A stretch of DNA of 64,000 nt. It comes from Nitrospira japonica (lineage in GTDB: Bacteria > Nitrospirota > Thermodesulfovibrionia > UBA6902). The DNA lies in assembly GCA_020723105.1 (NCBI GenBank), contig DYJL01000012.1:1-64000 (forward strand), given 5' to 3'. Shown here piece by piece: positions 3,053 to 10,852 of this stretch. The notes below the pieces were generated by a model. The model did not search any database, was not told where the DNA came from, and saw nothing but the letters and a program-made list of their open reading frames with translations. Position 1 is the stretch's first letter; each line of letters opens with the position of its first letter. Position numbers and translations under genes: made by a program.

Positions 3053-5743
3053 TTGTCAGAAGATAAATTAAAAATAACAATTAACGGGATTGAGACCCGG
3101 TGTGAAAGAGGAACGACTATTCTTACTGCTGCAAGGCTGGCAGGAGTGAAGATTCCAACTCTCTGCCATGATGACAGGCTGGAACCCTATGGCGGCTGCC
3201 GCCTGTGCATCGTTCAGATTAAAGGTGTGAACAGGCCCCTGCCTGCGTGTACCACCCCTGTTTCGAACAACATGATAATTACTACAGAAAACGAAACACT
3301 GACCAGAATGCGAAAAAATGTTCTGGAACTCCTGCTGTCCAACCATCCTAATGACTGCATGAGATGCGAAAAGACCGGCGAATGCGAGCTGCAGGATCTG
3401 GCATATAAATACGATGTGGACGGGAAACGTTTTGAGGGTGAGATGTGGAACCTGCCAATCCGTGAGGACAACCCGTTTATCACATATGAGCCTAACAAAT
3501 GCATATTGTGCGGAAGGTGCGTGAGAATATGCAATGAAGTCGTAATGGCAGGCACTATTGACCTTGTTGGAAGGGGTTTCAATTCAATGCCTGACACGGC
3601 TTTCAGAAAACCGCGTACTCTGGAGAATTGCGAATTCTGCGGGCAGTGTGTGTCCACCTGTCCGACCGGAGCGCTGACCGACAGGAAGGGCAGAGGCAAA
3701 GGACGTTCATATGAAATGAAGAAGGTGAAGACTACCTGTTCGTACTGCGGCACAGGATGCAACTTCTATTTAAATGTCAGAAACAATAAAGTTATAAAAG
3801 TGACCTCAGCTTATGATGCGCCTGTTAATGAGGGAAACCTCTGCATAAAGGGGCGCTATGGTTATGACTTTATTCACAGCCCTGAAAGGATAACAACTCC
3901 TCTGATAAGAAAAGACGGCAGCTTCCACGAAGCCACCTGGGATGAGGCCCTTGGACTCATTGCAAATAAATTTAAAGAGCTGATTGACAAGTACGGACCT
4001 GAAAAGGTCGGAGCATTTTCCTCAGCGCGCTGCACAAATGAGGAAAACTATCTGCTTGCAAAGTGGGTCAGATGCGCAATCGGATCTAATAACGTGGACA
4101 ACTGCGCGCGTGTCTGACACGCCCCGACTGTTGCCGGTCTGGCAACAAGCCTGGGGGCGGGAGCCGCCACGAATTCATTGTCCCAGATGCCGGATATTGA
4201 CACGCTCTTTCTGTTCGGGTCCAACCCGACAGAAGCGCACCCCATAGTTTCCTTCTGGCTCAAAAAGGCATTGCGCAACGGCGCAAAGCTTATCGTAGGC
4301 GACCCCCGTAAGACCTGGATGGCAAGACGCGCCGACATCTGGCTCAACCTTAAGCCCGGCAGCAACATAGCCATGATGAACGGCCTTGTGAACGTGATAC
4401 TCCAGAACGGCTGGGAGAACAAGGAGTTTATCGCAAAAAGGACGGAGGGGTTCGAAGAGCTCAAGGCAAAAGTTAAGGAATACGACCTGGAGCGGGTTGA
4501 AAGGCTTACAGGTGTTTCAAAAGAAGATATAATCGAGGCCGCGCGCCTGTATTCTCACGCCAGCAAGGCGATGATAGTCTACGGGCTCGGAGTTACAGAG
4601 CATCAGACCGGCACTGAAAACGCTATGGCTATCGCCAACCTCGCGCTTGTCTGCGGACATCTAGGCAGGCCTTCAACGGGTATTATGGCGCTCAGGGGGC
4701 AGAATAACGTCCAGGGCGCTTCTGACCTCGGCCCATTGCCGGCAACGCTCCCCGGTTACCAGCCGGTTTCTGATGCGAAGCTGCGTGAAAAGTTTGAAAA
4801 GGCCTGGGGCATAAAGATAAGTCCCAAACCTGGACTTAAGTCCGTTGAGATGCTTGATGAATGCAGGAGGGGAAATTTCAAGGGACTGTTCATATTAGGA
4901 GAAGACCCGGCCCAGACAGACCCTGATCTCCACCATGTGTGGAAGGCGCTTGAGTCTGTTGAATTCCTTGTGGTACAGGACATCTTCCACACTGAGACAA
5001 CGCGTTTTGCCCACGTGATACTCCCCGGCGCGAGCTTCGCTGAAAAAGACGGCACGTTTACAAACGGCGAGCGCAGGGTACAGCGCGTGAGAAAGGCGAT
5101 AGAGCCTCTTTCCGGAATGGCGGAATGGGAGGTCATCTGCAAGATATCAACCTTGATGGGTTATCCTATGCATTATAATCATCCATCTGAAATAATGGAT
5201 GAGATCGCGAGCCTTGTGCCCATATACGGCGGCATCAGCTATGACCGTATTGAGGAAAAAGGGATTCAATGGCCCTGCCCGACAAAAGATCATCCTGGAA
5301 CGACAACCCTTTATACAGACTTGTTTTCAAGGCCGGGAGGACTGGCGAAGTTCATGGCATTGGATCACAAGGGACCTGGCGAGGTTACTGACAAGCAGTA
5401 TCCGTTTGTCCTTGTAACAGGAAGGATACGGGAACATTATAATAATGGTTCGATGTCGAGAAGGGTGTCAGGGATCATGGAGCTGATCGGGGAAGAATTG
5501 CTTGAGATCAGCTCGGAAGATGCCAAAAAACTCAAGATCAACAACGGCGATATGGTAAAAGTATCCTCGAGGCGGGGAGAAATAAAAGTGAAGGCAAAGG
5601 TCACAGACCGCTCCCAGCCCGGCAATGTGTTCCTCACATTCCACTATCAGGACGCTCTGACGAACCTGCTTACATCAGAACACAGAGACCCGATCACCGG
5701 CACGCCGGAATATAAATCCTGCGCCGTGAAGATAGAGAAGTAG
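3053..5743 (+). CDS. fdhA: Selenocysteine formate dehydrogenase, catalytic subunit (TGA read as Sec)
   Basis: This 896-residue molybdenum/tungsten bis-PGD enzyme oxidises formate to CO2 or runs the reverse. Residues 1-70 hold a plant-type [2Fe-2S] site (C38, C49, C52, C66). H98/C102/C105/C111 form a NuoG-like His-Cys cluster. Two [4Fe-4S] motifs follow (C150-C160 and C193-C203), then the catalytic-domain cluster C229/C232/C236/C264. The in-frame TGA at 4115-4117 is codon 355 in the context NCARV-Sec-HAPTVAG, the standard active-site Sec context of Sec formate dehydrogenases. Reading continues uninterrupted to 5743 through the molydopterin-binding C-terminal domain. A SECIS hairpin follows the TGA. 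The start is TTG with GGGAG upstream. It is the last gene of the formate dehydrogenase operon. Confidence 0.95.
4129..4147 (+). promoter_or_regulatory. Bacterial SECIS element of fdhA
   Basis: A perfect 7-bp stem TGTTGCC/GGCAACA encloses a GGTCT loop whose first base is 18 nt after the TGA. The apical GGTCT matches my recollection of the E. coli fdhF SECIS loop, and the spacing fits a SelB-binding hairpin inside the reading frame. Confidence 0.85.
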
Positions 5744-5785
5744 GACTTTCGCGTCATCCCTTTTATTTGAGATTTAAATAATAGT

Positions 5786-5810
5786 TGGACGAGGTGTAAT
5801 GCCTCGTCCA
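5786..5810. terminator. Hairpin after fdhA, possible terminator
   Basis: A perfect 9-bp stem TGGACGAGG/CCTCGTCCA with a 7-nt loop lies 43 bp after the fdhA stop. There is no clean T-run after it, so it is a candidate terminator or mRNA 3-prime stabiliser only. Confidence 0.45.
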
Positions 5811-5819
5811 TAACGCATC

Positions 5820-5849
5820 TTAACATTTTAAAGAAATTTGTCTTATAAT
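5820..5849 (+). promoter_or_regulatory. Promoter of the first ArsR-type gene
   Basis: TTAACA (5820-5825) and TATAAT (5844-5849) are separated by 18 bp. The predicted transcription start falls at about 5856, a base or two before the ATG at 5858. The mRNA would be essentially leaderless, which fits the absence of a ribosome-binding site. Confidence 0.55.
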
Positions 5850-6296: not shown

Positions 6297-6638
6297 ATGA
6301 ATACTCTAATGAATCACGTCGAAACCTTAAAGCCCGTTTTTCATCCTGTGAGGATAGCCATACTTGAGGAGCTGGCTAAGGGAGTAAAGTGTGTCAGCGA
6401 GCTTGAGGAATTTCTTGCAATAAGCCAATCAAACGTCTCACAGCATCTTTCAGCCTTAAGGCTTGCCGGCATTATTGACTACTTCATAGACGGAAGGCTC
6501 AGATGTTATTTCTTGAAAAATCCCATGATCCCTGATCTGCTTGAGATACTCAAAAAAGAATACCCGGAAGAGCTGCCGGGTCCGGAATGCTGTCCGGTCA
6601 CAAAAAAAGGCACATATCACGGGGACAGGAAAAAATAA
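6297..6638 (+). CDS. ArsR-family regulator heading the selenoprotein/sulfur cassette
   Basis: This 113-residue ArsR-type winged-helix protein has FHPVRIAILEELAKG and SQSNVSQHLSALRLAGII. It carries C32 in the helix position (VKCVSEL) used by ArsR and by persulfide sensors of the SqrR/BigR type, and a C-terminal PECCPV motif. These Cys could sense arsenite, persulfide or selenide; the choice is inference. The gene follows a promoter whose spacer is a perfect palindrome, so autorepression is likely. It ends 20 bp before the YedE-type gene, which places it as the probable regulator of the whole 6.3-10.9 kb operon. No Shine-Dalgarno sequence precedes the ATG; a second ATG lies at 6309. Confidence 0.85.
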   Translation: MNTLMNHVETLKPVFHPVRIAILEELAKGVKCVSELEEFLAISQSNVSQHLSALRLAGIIDYFIDGRLRCYFLKNPMIPDLLEILKKEYPEELPGPECCPVTKKGTYHGDRKK

Positions 6639-6658
6639 ACAGGGAAGGAGACTATAGA

Positions 6659-7846
6659 ATGACGCTCCCCAAGTATTTTCATGAAAAACTGTACAAAAAC
6701 CTATTTGAAAAGACCTGGCCGCTCTGGCTTGGCGGCATTCTGATAGCATTTTTGAACATACTAATGTTTTTATTTCTAATGCCGCTTGGCGGAATATATC
6801 CGGCTATTGCAGATTGGGGTATATGGATATACAGGCTGGCAGGGTTGAAGATAACCCCGCCATGGGGAACTCTAACGCCGCCCCATCTTAGTATTATTAG
6901 TATTCTAAATTTCGGACTGATATTCGGCACATTAATCTCAGCCCTTCTTTCGCGACAATTTAAACTCAGAAAAGATTCAACAGCCGGTTACATCCAGGGT
7001 TTTGCCGGCGGCGCCATGATGGGTATCGGCAGTTTCCTTGTAGGCGCCTGCATCTTTGGAGGATTTTATTCATCAATCATGTCCTTATCCCTGAGCGGGT
7101 TATATATGATGATTGGGTTGCTCACAGGCGCTTTTTTAGGCGGAAAACTTATGATATGGCAGGCATTCAGAGAGGCAGAAAAGATGGAGTTCACGGAGCT
7201 CGTTGATCTGAAAACAGCTCCTGAAAAAAAGGTCAAACGAGTGATTAATTATCCGTTAACAGGTCTTTTTGTTACAATCATTTTGGTTATCACAGCCTCA
7301 GTTTATTTTCTCACCGGGAAAAATGTTTTTGGGGGGATATTGCTCTTTGGCGCAGCCTTCGGGATAGTCTTCCAGAGATCCTCTTTTTGTATATCTGCCG
7401 GTTTCAGGGAAGTCTTTACATCAAAGCATAATGAGCCGATGCGGATCCTCCTGCTTAGTCTTGCGATAGGGACTCTGGGATTTACCATTATAAAGGCAAA
7501 TGGTTTCAGACCTGCAGATATGTTCATCCTTCCGGCAGGCTTGCACAGTATTATTGGCGGGGCAATTTTTGGATTCGGCATGGTTATAACAGGCGGTTGA
7601 GCGGCAGGGATACTCTGGCGGTCCGCCGAGGGATATATAAGACACTGGTTTGCTATGCTTGGGGCCATGCTTGTAGCAGGCTTGTGGGTTCCTCTTTATG
7701 GAGAACAGGCAGGAAAAGGCTGGCTCTATGGGAAAACGGTATTTCTGCCTGAAAAACTCGGTTGGGGAGGTTCTTTAATTGGTGTGCTGGTAATACTTAT
7801 CGCTTTTTACATCTTTGTAACCTGGCTTGAATTAAAAAAGAAATAA
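6659..7846 (+). CDS. yedE: YedE/YeeE-type membrane transporter with selenocysteine (TGA read as Sec)
   Basis: This is a 395-residue polytopic inner-membrane protein of the YeeE/YedE (DUF395) family, which imports thiosulfate in YeeE and is linked to selenium metabolism in YedE. Two Gly-rich half-repeats are visible: GSFLVGACIFGG in the first half, and GMVITGG-Sec-AAGILWRSAEG in the second. The TGA at 7598-7600 is codon 314 and falls exactly where the family has the pore Cys of its GGC motif. Downstream reading continues in frame with two more hydrophobic segments to the stop at 7846. A SECIS hairpin lies 19 nt after the TGA. The start at 6659 follows GGGAAGGAG; the longer ORF from 6587 overlaps arsR. 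Read without recoding, the gene would look like two fragments. Confidence 0.9.
7613..7630 (+). promoter_or_regulatory. SECIS element of the YedE-type gene
   Basis: The hairpin is CTC, a bulged T, GGC, loop GGTCC, then GCC and GAG. It has the canonical bacterial layout: two short stems around one bulged U and a GGUC loop. The loop starts 19 nt after the TGA. Confidence 0.8.
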
Positions 7847-7858
7847 GGAGTTCTAAAC

Positions 7859-8092
7859 ATGGATAAACTTTATATGGTGGATATGAGGAATGGGACCTGA
7901 ATTCCTCCGGGAATTTTAATCTCCATGGTCATGGAGAAACTTGAGAAGTCAGAAAAAGGTACAACACTGAATATGCTTGTAGATTGTTCCTCTACCGGAG
8001 AGAAAATCTATGGTGTCTTGCAAGATGAAGGTTATGATGTAAAAATGGTGCGCATTAAAGAAAGTGAATGGGCTATAAAAGCGAAAAAATAA
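7859..8092 (+). CDS. TusA/SirA-like sulfur carrier with selenocysteine (TGA read as Sec)
   Basis: This 77-residue protein with the TusA/SirA/YedF beta-alpha-beta-alpha-beta pattern starts MDKLYMVDMRNGT-Sec-IPPG. The family active site is Cys-Pro-x-Pro, whose Cys carries persulfide. Here an in-frame TGA at 7898-7900 (codon 14) takes the Cys position and the motif reads Sec-I-P-P. A second Cys follows at VDCSSTG (residue 43). The gene begins 12 bp after yedE with AAGGAG upstream, as is usual for YedE-YedF pairs. Without Sec only a 13-residue peptide would be made, yet the rest is intact and well conserved in pattern. The Sec would carry selenide or a selenosulfide; this is inference. Confidence 0.88.
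7920..7937 (+). promoter_or_regulatory. SECIS element of the TusA-like gene
   Basis: A perfect 7-bp stem TCTCCAT/ATGGAGA holds a GGTC tetraloop that begins 26 nt after the TGA. A second, nearer hairpin (AATTCC/GGAATT, 7901-7916) lacks the GGTC loop. I take the GGTC one as the SECIS. Confidence 0.75.
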
Positions 8093-8109: not shown

Positions 8110-8466
8110 ATGAGCAAGACTTTTACACTATTGCTTGGCACATCACCGTATTCTTATGAGAACACACTTACCACGGTAAAGATCGCAGAATCTGCCCTGA
8201 ACAAAGGATACACGGTCAACGTCATCGCATCCGGTGACGGGGTGTATTGTTTTTTGAAAGGGCAGAAGGCAAAGGGGATAACCAATGCTGAGGAGAAGTT
8301 TACAGAGCTTATCGAGAAAGGCCTGAGAGTATATCTCTGAGGCGGGTGTCTCAACTTTCGCCGTGCAGCGAAGAATGATTATCTTGATAACGCAGAAGTC
8401 GGCACCCTCAAGGGTCTTTTTAAAACGATGGGGGAAACCGATATCTGGCTGAATCTGGGAGCATAA
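8110..8466 (+). CDS. DsrE-family protein with selenocysteine (TGA read as Sec)
   Basis: This 118-residue DsrE/YchN-fold protein has FTLLLGTSPYSYENTLTTVKIAESALNKGY and the second half YDYLDNAEVGTLKGLF-type region typical of sulfur-relay DsrE proteins. The in-frame TGA at 8338-8340 is codon 77 in VYL-Sec-GGC-LNFR, the spot where DsrE relatives place the catalytic Cys (Cys-Gly-x-Cys-x-x-x-Arg). The result is a Sec-Gly-Gly-Cys redox pair. Reading continues for 41 residues to TAA at 8464-8466. A SECIS hairpin follows. I chose the ATG at 8110 because AGGAGG precedes it; an upstream in-frame ATG overlaps the TusA-like gene. It would exchange persulfide or selenide with the TusA-like partner. Confidence 0.88.
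8355..8373 (+). promoter_or_regulatory. SECIS element of the DsrE gene
   Basis: The hairpin is CTT, a bulged T, CGC, loop CGTGCA, then GCG and AAG. The bulged U and two 3-bp stems match the layout of the YedE element, and the loop carries GU. It starts 21 nt after the TGA. The loop differs from the GGTC seen in the other three. Confidence 0.65.
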
Positions 8467-8558: not shown

Positions 8559-8912
8559 ATGGGAAAGATAGCAATAGTTTTGAGAAGGTCGCCATATGGT
8601 GATATTAATGCGGCAGAGGCTGTAAGGCATGCGCTTGGCGGTGTTGCGGATGAATTAAGTGTAGACCTCATTTTGGTTGACGCCGGAGTTTTGCTCGCAA
8701 AGCAGGGGCAGGACGATACGGAAACAGGCTTTACAAATCTGGGAGATACACTGATGGACTGCTTAGAGATGGGAGTAGATGTATATGCAGATAAGCATTC
8801 ACTCAGAGAAGAGAATATGGATACGGCGGATATCCCTGAAGGTATTAAGGTAGTAACCGGCTCAGAAATAGCCGATATTATTAAAAATGCAAAGACAACA
8901 ATGATTTATTAA
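8559..8912 (+). CDS. DsrF/TusC-like sulfur relay protein
   Basis: This 117-residue protein of the DsrE/DsrF-like superfamily has KIAIVLRRSPYGDINAAEAVRHALG at the N-terminus and a DVYADKHSLREEN region. Only one Cys is present (MDCLEMG). DsrF/TusC proteins are structural partners of DsrE/TusD and DsrH/TusB in heterohexamers. Here the order Sec-DsrE, this gene, DsrH-like matches dsrEFH/tusDCB. AAAGGAGG precedes the ATG. This is a good family match; the assignment to the F position rests on order and lack of a catalytic Cys pair. Confidence 0.8.
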   Translation: MGKIAIVLRRSPYGDINAAEAVRHALGGVADELSVDLILVDAGVLLAKQGQDDTETGFTNLGDTLMDCLEMGVDVYADKHSLREENMDTADIPEGIKVVTGSEIADIIKNAKTTMIY

Positions 8913-8922
8913 GGAGGTTGTT

Positions 8923-9204
8923 ATGTTTGTTATTGTCAAAAGCGGACCTGATACACAGGATGGGAAGAGAGGGATAAAGCTGGCAAGAGACATGTCTGCC
9001 GATATCTGCCTGATTCAGAATGCAGTATATTTTGCCCGGAAAGAGAGCCTTGAAGGCTTTTGCGGAAAGGTGTATATTCTTGATAAAGATGCCGGTCTCA
9101 GAGGCTTGAAAGATGACGAACTTGAGAAGAGGATAAAGAAGATCGATTATGACGGTCTTGTTGAAATGATGGCTGGAGAAGACAAGGTAGTTGGGATGTA
9201 TTAA
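8923..9204 (+). CDS. DsrH/TusB-like sulfur relay protein
   Basis: This 93-residue protein fits DsrH/TusB in length and pattern: MFVIVKSGPDTQ at the start, DICLIQNAVYFARK, GKVYILDKDAGLRGL, and a C-terminal KIDYDGLVEMM segment. DsrH normally has one Cys near residue 20 that takes part in persulfide relay. Here the Cys residues are at DICLIQ and GFCGKV. It lies 10 bp after the DsrF-like gene with AAGGAGG upstream and completes an EFH-type trio in which the E subunit is a selenoprotein. This organism shows no dsrAB in the window. Confidence 0.75.
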   Translation: MFVIVKSGPDTQDGKRGIKLARDMSADICLIQNAVYFARKESLEGFCGKVYILDKDAGLRGLKDDELEKRIKKIDYDGLVEMMAGEDKVVGMY

Positions 9205-9225: not shown

Positions 9226-10413
9226 ATGGCAAAAATAGCTGTTATAGGCGGTTCCTTCGGAGGCTTGACAGCAGCCTTTGAACTTAAGAGGCTTCTTGGT
9301 AACAAAGCAGATGTAACATTGCTCTGTGATGTGAACAAGTTTGTCTTTGTCCCATCACTTCCATGGATTTCAATGGGATGGCGAAAACCTGAAGACATAA
9401 CACTTCCTCTTGAAAAGATATTAACCCCCAAAGGAATAAAATTTATACATGAAGAGGCAACAGGAGTTGATGCTGATAATTCAAAAGTTATTACAAAGAC
9501 GCAGGAGGTCCCATATGATTATCTTGTCATTGCATCAGGCCCTGCCCTTGGCTTCTCATCGGTACCGGGATTGGGCCCGGAAGGAGGTTATACGGAATGT
9601 ATCTTTACTCTTGAACAGGCAATGAAGGCTAACAATGCATGGAATAAATTTCTTGAAAACCCGGGGCCGATCGTAGTCGGAGCCGTTCAGGGCGTAAGCT
9701 GTTTCGGTCCTGCATATGAATATGCGTTCGAGGTAGATACCGAATTAAGGAAGAGAAACATGCGGCACAAGGTTCCAATGACATTTGTTACTTCCGAACC
9801 ATATATAGGCCATTTCGGAATCGGCGGGCTCAGAACATCCAGGAGAATGATGGAAGATGAATTTGCAGACAGGGAAATAAAAATTATAACCAATCAATCG
9901 GTGGATGAATTCACGCCGGAAGAGGTCAGGCTCAAGGATGGTACAAAGCTGCCGTTTACACTTGCCATGTTTGCTCCTCCAATGGCAGGCGTCAAGGCCG
10001 TATTCCATCTCGGCAATCCCAAAGGGTTTATTCCTGTTGATGCCAATTACCGTCACAAGAGCTATAAAAATATCTTTTCAGTAGGGGTTGCTATAGTAAT
10101 AGCGCCGCCGGAACAGACGCCTGTTCCCACGGGGGTGCCGAAGACAGGATTCATGACCGAACATATGGCAAAGGATGCCGCTAAGAGTATTGCAGCAGAC
10201 ATACTCGGTAAGCCTTCACCCGAAACCGAGCCTGTTGGAGCCCTTTGTATTATGGATATGGGAAATAAGGCAGCATTGATGAAGGCATACCCTGTTCTTC
10301 CACCACGGCGGGTAGCAGAGCTTAAAGTAGGGATCAATTATAAATGGGCAAAGCAGGCCTTTGAAAAATATTATCTCTGGAAGATTAAAAGAGGACTGAC
10401 TCAACTGCCATAA
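9226..10413 (+). CDS. Sulfide:quinone oxidoreductase-like flavoprotein
   Basis: This 395-residue FAD protein of the SQR/FCC family has the Rossmann motif AVIGGSFGGLTAAFELK at residues 4-20, VIASGPALG for the second FAD contact, and GPIVVGAVQGVSCFGPAYEY. Three Cys (C125, C159, C341) fall close to the three redox-active Cys of classical SQR. Known SQRs oxidise sulfide to polysulfide and reduce quinone at the membrane. Its place after DsrE-F-H homologues suggests it makes the sulfane sulfur (or handles selenide) that enters the relay. That substrate is inference. AAGGAGG precedes the start. Confidence 0.82.
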   Translation: MAKIAVIGGSFGGLTAAFELKRLLGNKADVTLLCDVNKFVFVPSLPWISMGWRKPEDITLPLEKILTPKGIKFIHEEATGVDADNSKVITKTQEVPYDYLVIASGPALGFSSVPGLGPEGGYTECIFTLEQAMKANNAWNKFLENPGPIVVGAVQGVSCFGPAYEYAFEVDTELRKRNMRHKVPMTFVTSEPYIGHFGIGGLRTSRRMMEDEFADREIKIITNQSVDEFTPEEVRLKDGTKLPFTLAMFAPPMAGVKAVFHLGNPKGFIPVDANYRHKSYKNIFSVGVAIVIAPPEQTPVPTGVPKTGFMTEHMAKDAAKSIAADILGKPSPETEPVGALCIMDMGNKAALMKAYPVLPPRRVAELKVGINYKWAKQAFEKYYLWKIKRGLTQLP

Positions 10414-10429: not shown

Positions 10430-10852
10430 ATGGAAAAAATAGTAAAAAATGTCTCTATAATGTGTTTCCATGATGAACTCTGTCAGGTCTATAATGCCCT
10501 TATGACTGCATTAAGCCTTTTAAGGGAAGGCTCAAAGGTAACAATATTTTTTGGTTCCCGGGGTGTTAACGCACTTCATAAAGATAAGGTGAAAACTCTT
10601 CAATGCTTGCCTGATCAACCCAAAGAATTCGGCGAAGCTGTAATGAAAAGGATGGAAGAGATGGAACTTCCCAATGTTGAAGATTTATTTGTAATGCTGC
10701 ATATGGAGGGGGCAAAACTTCTGGCTTGTCCATTGAATGTTCCGCTGTTTGGCATGAGTGAGACAAATTTTATTGAAGGTGTTGAGATAGCCAATCCGGC
10801 TACATACTATAAAGAAGTTGTCATTAAAGCAGATATGAATCTGACTTTCTAA
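10430..10852 (+). CDS. DsrE-like (DsrE2-type) protein
   Basis: This 140-residue DsrE/DsrF/DrsH-fold protein has MCFHDELCQVYNALMTALSLLREGSKVTIFF, then GAKLLACPLNVPLFGMSE. Related DsrE2-type membrane-linked or peroxiredoxin-like proteins carry a Cys at the LACP position used in sulfur transfer. It closes the sulfur cassette 16 bp after the SQR-like gene, with GAGGTG upstream. It is probably a further acceptor of persulfide. I cannot name a precise subfamily. Confidence 0.7.
   Translation: MEKIVKNVSIMCFHDELCQVYNALMTALSLLREGSKVTIFFGSRGVNALHKDKVKTLQCLPDQPKEFGEAVMKRMEEMELPNVEDLFVMLHMEGAKLLACPLNVPLFGMSETNFIEGVEIANPATYYKEVVIKADMNLTF

Follow-up and report, generated by a model that had tools for sequence, protein, structure and literature searches.

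What could selenium add to a persulfide relay whose cysteine version is well studied? The question is raised by a dsrE-like gene (8110..8466, forward strand) in the window, the 64,000-nucleotide stretch of a Nitrospira japonica contig (DYJL01000012.1, assembly GCA_020723105.1) that was analysed. The gene contains an in-frame TGA shortly before a cysteine codon, and a sequence-only reading had proposed that it encodes a DsrE protein with a Sec-Gly-Gly-Cys motif; the coordinates, frame and motif of that proposal proved correct. Under standard-code annotation the product stops at residue 76, and many Nitrospirota DsrEFH-type complexes would then seem to be without a catalytic subunit.

Decoding of the in-frame UGA

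The gene, referred to here as dsrE(U), starts with ATG at 8110, just behind a good ribosome-binding site (GGAGG), and ends with TAA at 8464-8466. Its only in-frame TGA (8338-8340) is codon 77 of a product of 118 amino acids, and the active-site motif UGA-GGC-GGG-TGT (8338..8349, forward strand) would give U77-G-G-C80, with Sec and Cys three residues apart as had been noticed from the sequence. In a Pfam profile search the DsrE domain (PF02635, E 3.8e-16) covers residues 4-111, extending to either side of the TGA, and the product thereby combines a PF02635 domain with UxxC; among NCBIfam models it falls under every curated cut-off, that of TusD included. The UGA at 8338-8340 is almost certainly read as selenocysteine, judging from the sequence record, because it is conserved and is followed directly by a SECIS hairpin.

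Conservation was seen at several depths. A search of 101 related genomes gave 50 matches that each contain one TGA and no more, the single TGA of close orthologues throughout Nitrospirota lies at codon 77, and in all relative loci examined (169 HSPs, redundant) position 77 is the only site of an in-frame stop in DsrE. The neighbouring YedE and TusA genes likewise have in-frame stops at one site each across loci, except for one stray stop in a distant YedE, and DsrF, DsrH and DsrE2 have none. The region around residue 77 could be extracted from 96 distinct sequences, of which 86 have TGA at this position and ten have Cys; the ten comprise four orthologues, one archaeal protein and paralogues that are more distant. 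The four close orthologues without a stop, all in family f23 of a 395-genome phylum sample, carry TGC or TGT and read CGTC, and dsrE(U) thus shows both a conserved UGA and Cys replacement in some orthologues, as is typical of bacterial selenoproteins. The survey of U-G-G-C in DsrE relatives that the sequence-only reading had suggested found this motif in 69 of the 86 distinct Sec forms and UTGC in 12, with UGAC, UGTC, UGSC, USGC and UGTS once each; Cys80 is near-invariant. Purifying selection is as strong past the TGA as ahead of it (pN/pS 0.181 and 0.156, respectively, in 20 orthologues). In the tree the Sec forms make up one group (support 93/74), whose sister group is the four CGTC proteins (99/95 for the two combined), and a lone "U" row outside the Sec group is a paralogue with its TGA at residue 32 instead of 77.

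The predicted SECIS hairpin (8355..8374, forward strand; TTTCGC-CGTGCA-GCGAAG) has a stem of 6-7 bp and a 6-nt loop that starts 21 nt after the UGA. Across 44 sequences the stem pairs in 94% of cells, compared with 44-62% if it is slid by 1-3 columns, and at one pair 12 sequences have C-G in place of U-A. Sec forms have more stable folds than their synonymous-codon versions (mean z -3.2), which is not the case for most Cys forms; by these comparisons, the candidate hairpin covaries in Sec forms and is absent from Cys forms. Dinucleotide shuffles of the window hairpin alone gave a weak signal (z -1 to -1.8), so the case for the SECIS rests on the orthologues. Its Arg codons, CGC and CGT, are uncommon in the window, where AGG and AGA dominate. 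In a 2026 review, bacterial SECIS elements are described by a loop of 3-9 nt with G in the first two positions, located 16-37 nt after the UGA, a stem of 4-16 bp and a minimum free energy of at most -7.5 kcal/mol (PMC13188914). The dsrE(U) hairpin agrees in loop length, G (second position), spacing and stem; its energy is -5.8 to -7.0 kcal/mol for the local hairpin alone and -12.6 kcal/mol for a 43-nt stretch, and only the longer stretch reaches the published limit.

The sequence-only reading had correctly set the CGTGCA loop apart from the GGTC loops of the other three, here those of FdhA, YedE and TusA, and had called this selenoprotein the least typical of the set, a view that did not hold. 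Of the 86 Sec forms, 85 retain the loop G and 81 the following U, as in GGUC; many orthologues have a C-G pair closing a GUGC loop, distant orthologues have GGUC itself, and the window loop retains both G and U. An atypical SECIS was rejected on this basis and on its fit to the published bacterial model. UxxC is moreover the reported motif of known DsrE-like selenoproteins, and CxxC occurs in YchN and in the DsrE domain of YedF.

The same genome encodes the full decoding machinery: a tRNA-Sec (74.5 bits) together with SelA, SelB and SelD, all above their cut-offs; SelA adjoins SelB, and the SelD gene itself carries a TGA. A genuine stop or a sequencing error at the TGA of dsrE(U), with a 76-residue fragment as the product, agrees with where standard annotation would end the protein, and is hardly credible given the conserved TGA, the reading frame, the selection beyond it, the SECIS and this machinery. 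This explanation was rejected, principally on TGA conservation, the SECIS and pN/pS past the TGA.

Close relatives of dsrE(U) found in a contig scan came from Nitrospirota records and otherwise from records titled Deferribacteres bacterium, uncultured bacterium and Bacterium BMS3Abin06, along with one distant archaeal Cys protein; the scan patterns spelled Cys or the DGVYCFLK stretch, and distant Sec forms elsewhere could therefore escape them. No relative was confirmed on viral contigs and no match was found in PHROGs; on plasmids, only haloarchaeal DsrE proteins (32-34% identity) were among the matches listed. Several variants were observed within the family. The UGTS orthologue (L152 1770-2123; L205, G346:C113) has Ser in place of Cys80, which is therefore not strictly indispensable, and has gained a Cys at the second position ahead of Sec (VCLUGTS). 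Sec-DsrE proteins at L165, L166, L168 and L169 (G025, G030, G010 and G013) have an insertion of approximately 25 residues after the active-site helix that holds two further cysteines (e.g. GGCADGRC). At L164 (4218-4563) and L199, a short frame-shifting deletion lies right behind the TGA, reflecting either decay or an assembly error. One CGTC orthologue (G111:C304, at L198, and G111:C62) occurs in a genome that still has full SelB; the Cys form therefore does not simply follow from losing Sec decoding.

Active site and known relatives

Sec77 very likely occupies the catalytic position of the DsrE/TusD cysteine. In alignments it corresponds to TusD Cys78, which is equivalent to DsrE-Cys78, to the TusC Cys and to the first Cys of the YchN motif CKTC; C80 corresponds to the second Cys of CKTC and to Ala in TusD. 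The best of five AlphaFold models of DsrE(U) (pLDDT 91; the other four reached 70-75) has a strand at 73-77 followed by a helix at 78-83, and its fold matches those of YchN (Z 18.4), DsrE (Z 17.6) and TusD (Z 17.0). The active residue is thus predicted at the strand end before the helix, as is characteristic of the DsrE fold. The sequence-only reading had proposed comparing a predicted structure with the DsrE active Cys and had staked its claim on the TGA not lying away from the active-site loop; Sec77 falls at the active-site cysteine by alignment, model and fold matches alike, and a position of Sec away from the active site was rejected. Allochromatium DsrE-Cys78 bears a persulfide and hands it to DsrC (PMC3397948).

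DsrE(U) belongs to an already known selenoprotein family. Earlier papers report a DsrE-like selenoprotein from Desulfovibrio vulgaris (PMC1794560) and UxxC DsrE-like selenoproteins from the Sargasso Sea (PMC1088965) and GOS data (PMC2398784); the latter type is also tabulated in the 2026 review, which places the DsrE-like protein among those with largely uncharacterized functions (PMC13188914). DsrE(U) shares with them the PF02635 family and the Sec-to-Cys spacing, and differs in its Nitrospirota setting within a conserved dsrEFH-SQR operon, the D. vulgaris protein being compared by description only. No operon or structure is given in the accessible parts of these four papers, and a text search of the open-access literature for DsrEFH and selenocysteine, which is weak evidence of absence, returned a single paper that mentions each term once and found no description of the ArsR-DsrE(U)-DsrF-DsrH-SQR setting. 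What this little-described family gains is an operon, Sec forms from across the phylum, a located active site and four Cys counterparts whose genes stand in the same order.

Among solved proteins, E. coli YchN (PDB 1jx7) is the best match both in sequence (E 4.9e-7) and in structure; it has Cys where DsrE(U) has Sec, and dsrF and dsrH are not adjacent to it in E. coli. Allochromatium DsrE, of DsrEFH, and E. coli TusD have the common fold and, like DsrE(U), adjacent DsrF/TusC- and DsrH/TusB-like genes, and TusD shares the active residue position. Relative to both, DsrE(U) has Sec for Cys, and it has an extra Cys at +3, where TusD has Ala. At a comparable site, the DsrE-like domain of YedF carries CGxC (PMC5322559); however, YedF is a SirA-DsrE fusion with Cys, whereas the window has two separate genes with Sec, and the match to the YedF model is weak (TIGR03527, 15.9 bits against a cut-off of 110).

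Operon setting and possible role

The operon lies on the forward strand. An ArsR-family regulator (6297..6638; PF01022) is the upstream neighbour that adjoins dsrE(U) in most loci. In the window it is followed by a YeeE/YedE-type transporter selenoprotein (6641..7846, start codon approximate; PF04143, E 1.6e-44), with Sec at residue 320, where near relatives also have a TGA, and by a TusA-like selenoprotein (7859..8092; PF01206, 24.7 bits, under the 28.6 cut-off), with Sec at residue 14 and a TGA conserved in G005 (L040/L109) and G003:C46 (L066/L160). In the TusA-like protein, Sec is located at the CPxP cysteine (GTUIPPG); TusA and SirA are not mentioned in the 2026 review of prokaryotic selenoproteins (PMC13188914). 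Downstream of dsrE(U) are a DsrF/TusC-like subunit (8559..8912; PF02635; TIGR03010, 37.5 bits, below cut-off; DsrF 2hy5_B, E 6.5e-6), a DsrH/TusB-like subunit (8923..9204; PF04077, E 2e-10; TIGR03011, 43.2 bits, cut-off 49.2), an SQR-like pyridine nucleotide-disulfide oxidoreductase without Sec (9226..10413; PF07992; NF049943, 100.7 bits, cut-off 525) and a DsrE2-like protein (10430..10852; PF13686, E 6.9e-16). The best NCBIfam match of the SQR-like protein, below cut-off, is named "type III SQR, selenoprotein subtype", and neither the window nor the operons of relatives have a conserved in-frame TGA in this gene. Thermodesulfovibrionia and other Nitrospirota conserve the order ArsR-DsrE(U)-DsrF-DsrH-SQR, which DsrE2 and an RND-type transporter often accompany; DsrE-DsrF-DsrH occurs in nearly all loci, mostly with SQR next, and Sec-YedE and Sec-TusA are found in the operons of the window's genus and a few others only. 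DsrA and DsrC are present in the genome, and the setting as a whole suits a sulfur relay.

DsrE(U) is most likely the catalytic subunit of a DsrEFH-type sulfur relay that uses a Sec/Cys pair, an explanation that we hold as a whole with reasonable confidence; that the protein works in sulfur relay at all is likely. The adjacent subunits have Pfam matches over cut-off in a conserved operon, and scores for the curated TusD, TusC and TusB equivalogs stay below cut-off for DsrE, DsrF and DsrH, which leaves a standard DsrEFH complex unproven; the nearest solved protein by sequence, YchN, has no established role, which also counts against this explanation. In the proposed mechanism, DsrE(U) would assemble with the products of the next two genes into a DsrEFH-type complex. 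Sulfane sulfur would reach Sec77 from a carrier, e.g. the Sec-TusA encoded nearby, or from a persulfide in whose formation the SQR-like enzyme takes part, and would be held there as Se-SH. The sulfur could then be passed on, e.g. to the DsrC of this genome, or attack by Cys80 could release sulfide and close an Se-S bond, which a thioredoxin-like reductant would reopen. Single-Cys DsrE moves sulfur well, so UxxC is unnecessary for transfer; release driven by Cys80 would be the likely reason for UxxC, since Cys80 is nearly invariant. The chances that Cys80 is the resolving residue are about even, and the likeness of the putative Sec/Cys pair to thioredoxin-type redox pairs, proposed in the sequence-only reading, is plausible. 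It is doubtful, though conceivable, that the operon carries a Sec-to-Sec relay in which a Sec-YedE transporter, a Sec-TusA carrier and Sec-DsrE in a DsrEFH-type complex hand Se-SH on and UxxC decides between transfer and release.

The same genes could instead handle selenium, with the YedE-type transporter, Sec-TusA and Sec-DsrE bringing or holding selenide for SelD, a role that has been suggested for YedE and YedF. The transporter scores 138.7 bits with the YedE/FdhT model (cut-off 350), TusA and DsrE have weak YedF matches, YedF shares the CGxC site, and a Sec formate dehydrogenase (FdhA, 3053-5743) lies just upstream in the window. However, FdhA is unlinked to dsrE(U) in every relative locus examined, and it is DsrF and DsrH, nearly always, and SQR, mostly, that accompany dsrE(U), whereas YedE and TusA do so in few operons. 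The f23 Cys orthologues also keep the gene order, and for three of them the genome, 70-79% complete in two cases, yielded no full-length SelB. A role in selenium handling is unlikely. A dedicated thiol/selenol redox protein that carries no sulfur, whether it reduces persulfides or disulfides or senses redox state for the ArsR regulator, would suit UxxC at a strand-helix junction, the near-invariant Cys80, CxxC in all f23 Cys orthologues and the nearly always adjacent ArsR gene; we regard it as quite improbable, as the neighbouring DsrF and DsrH suggest a relay complex and CxxC is also found in YchN and in paralogues without a known redox role.

The window's genome also contains a remnant of a second copy of the operon (L088, G000:C80:136500-148000, at approximately 5490-5820), in which deletions have fused parts of YedE, DsrE and DsrH while leaving the UGA, the UGGC motif and the greater part of the SECIS intact.
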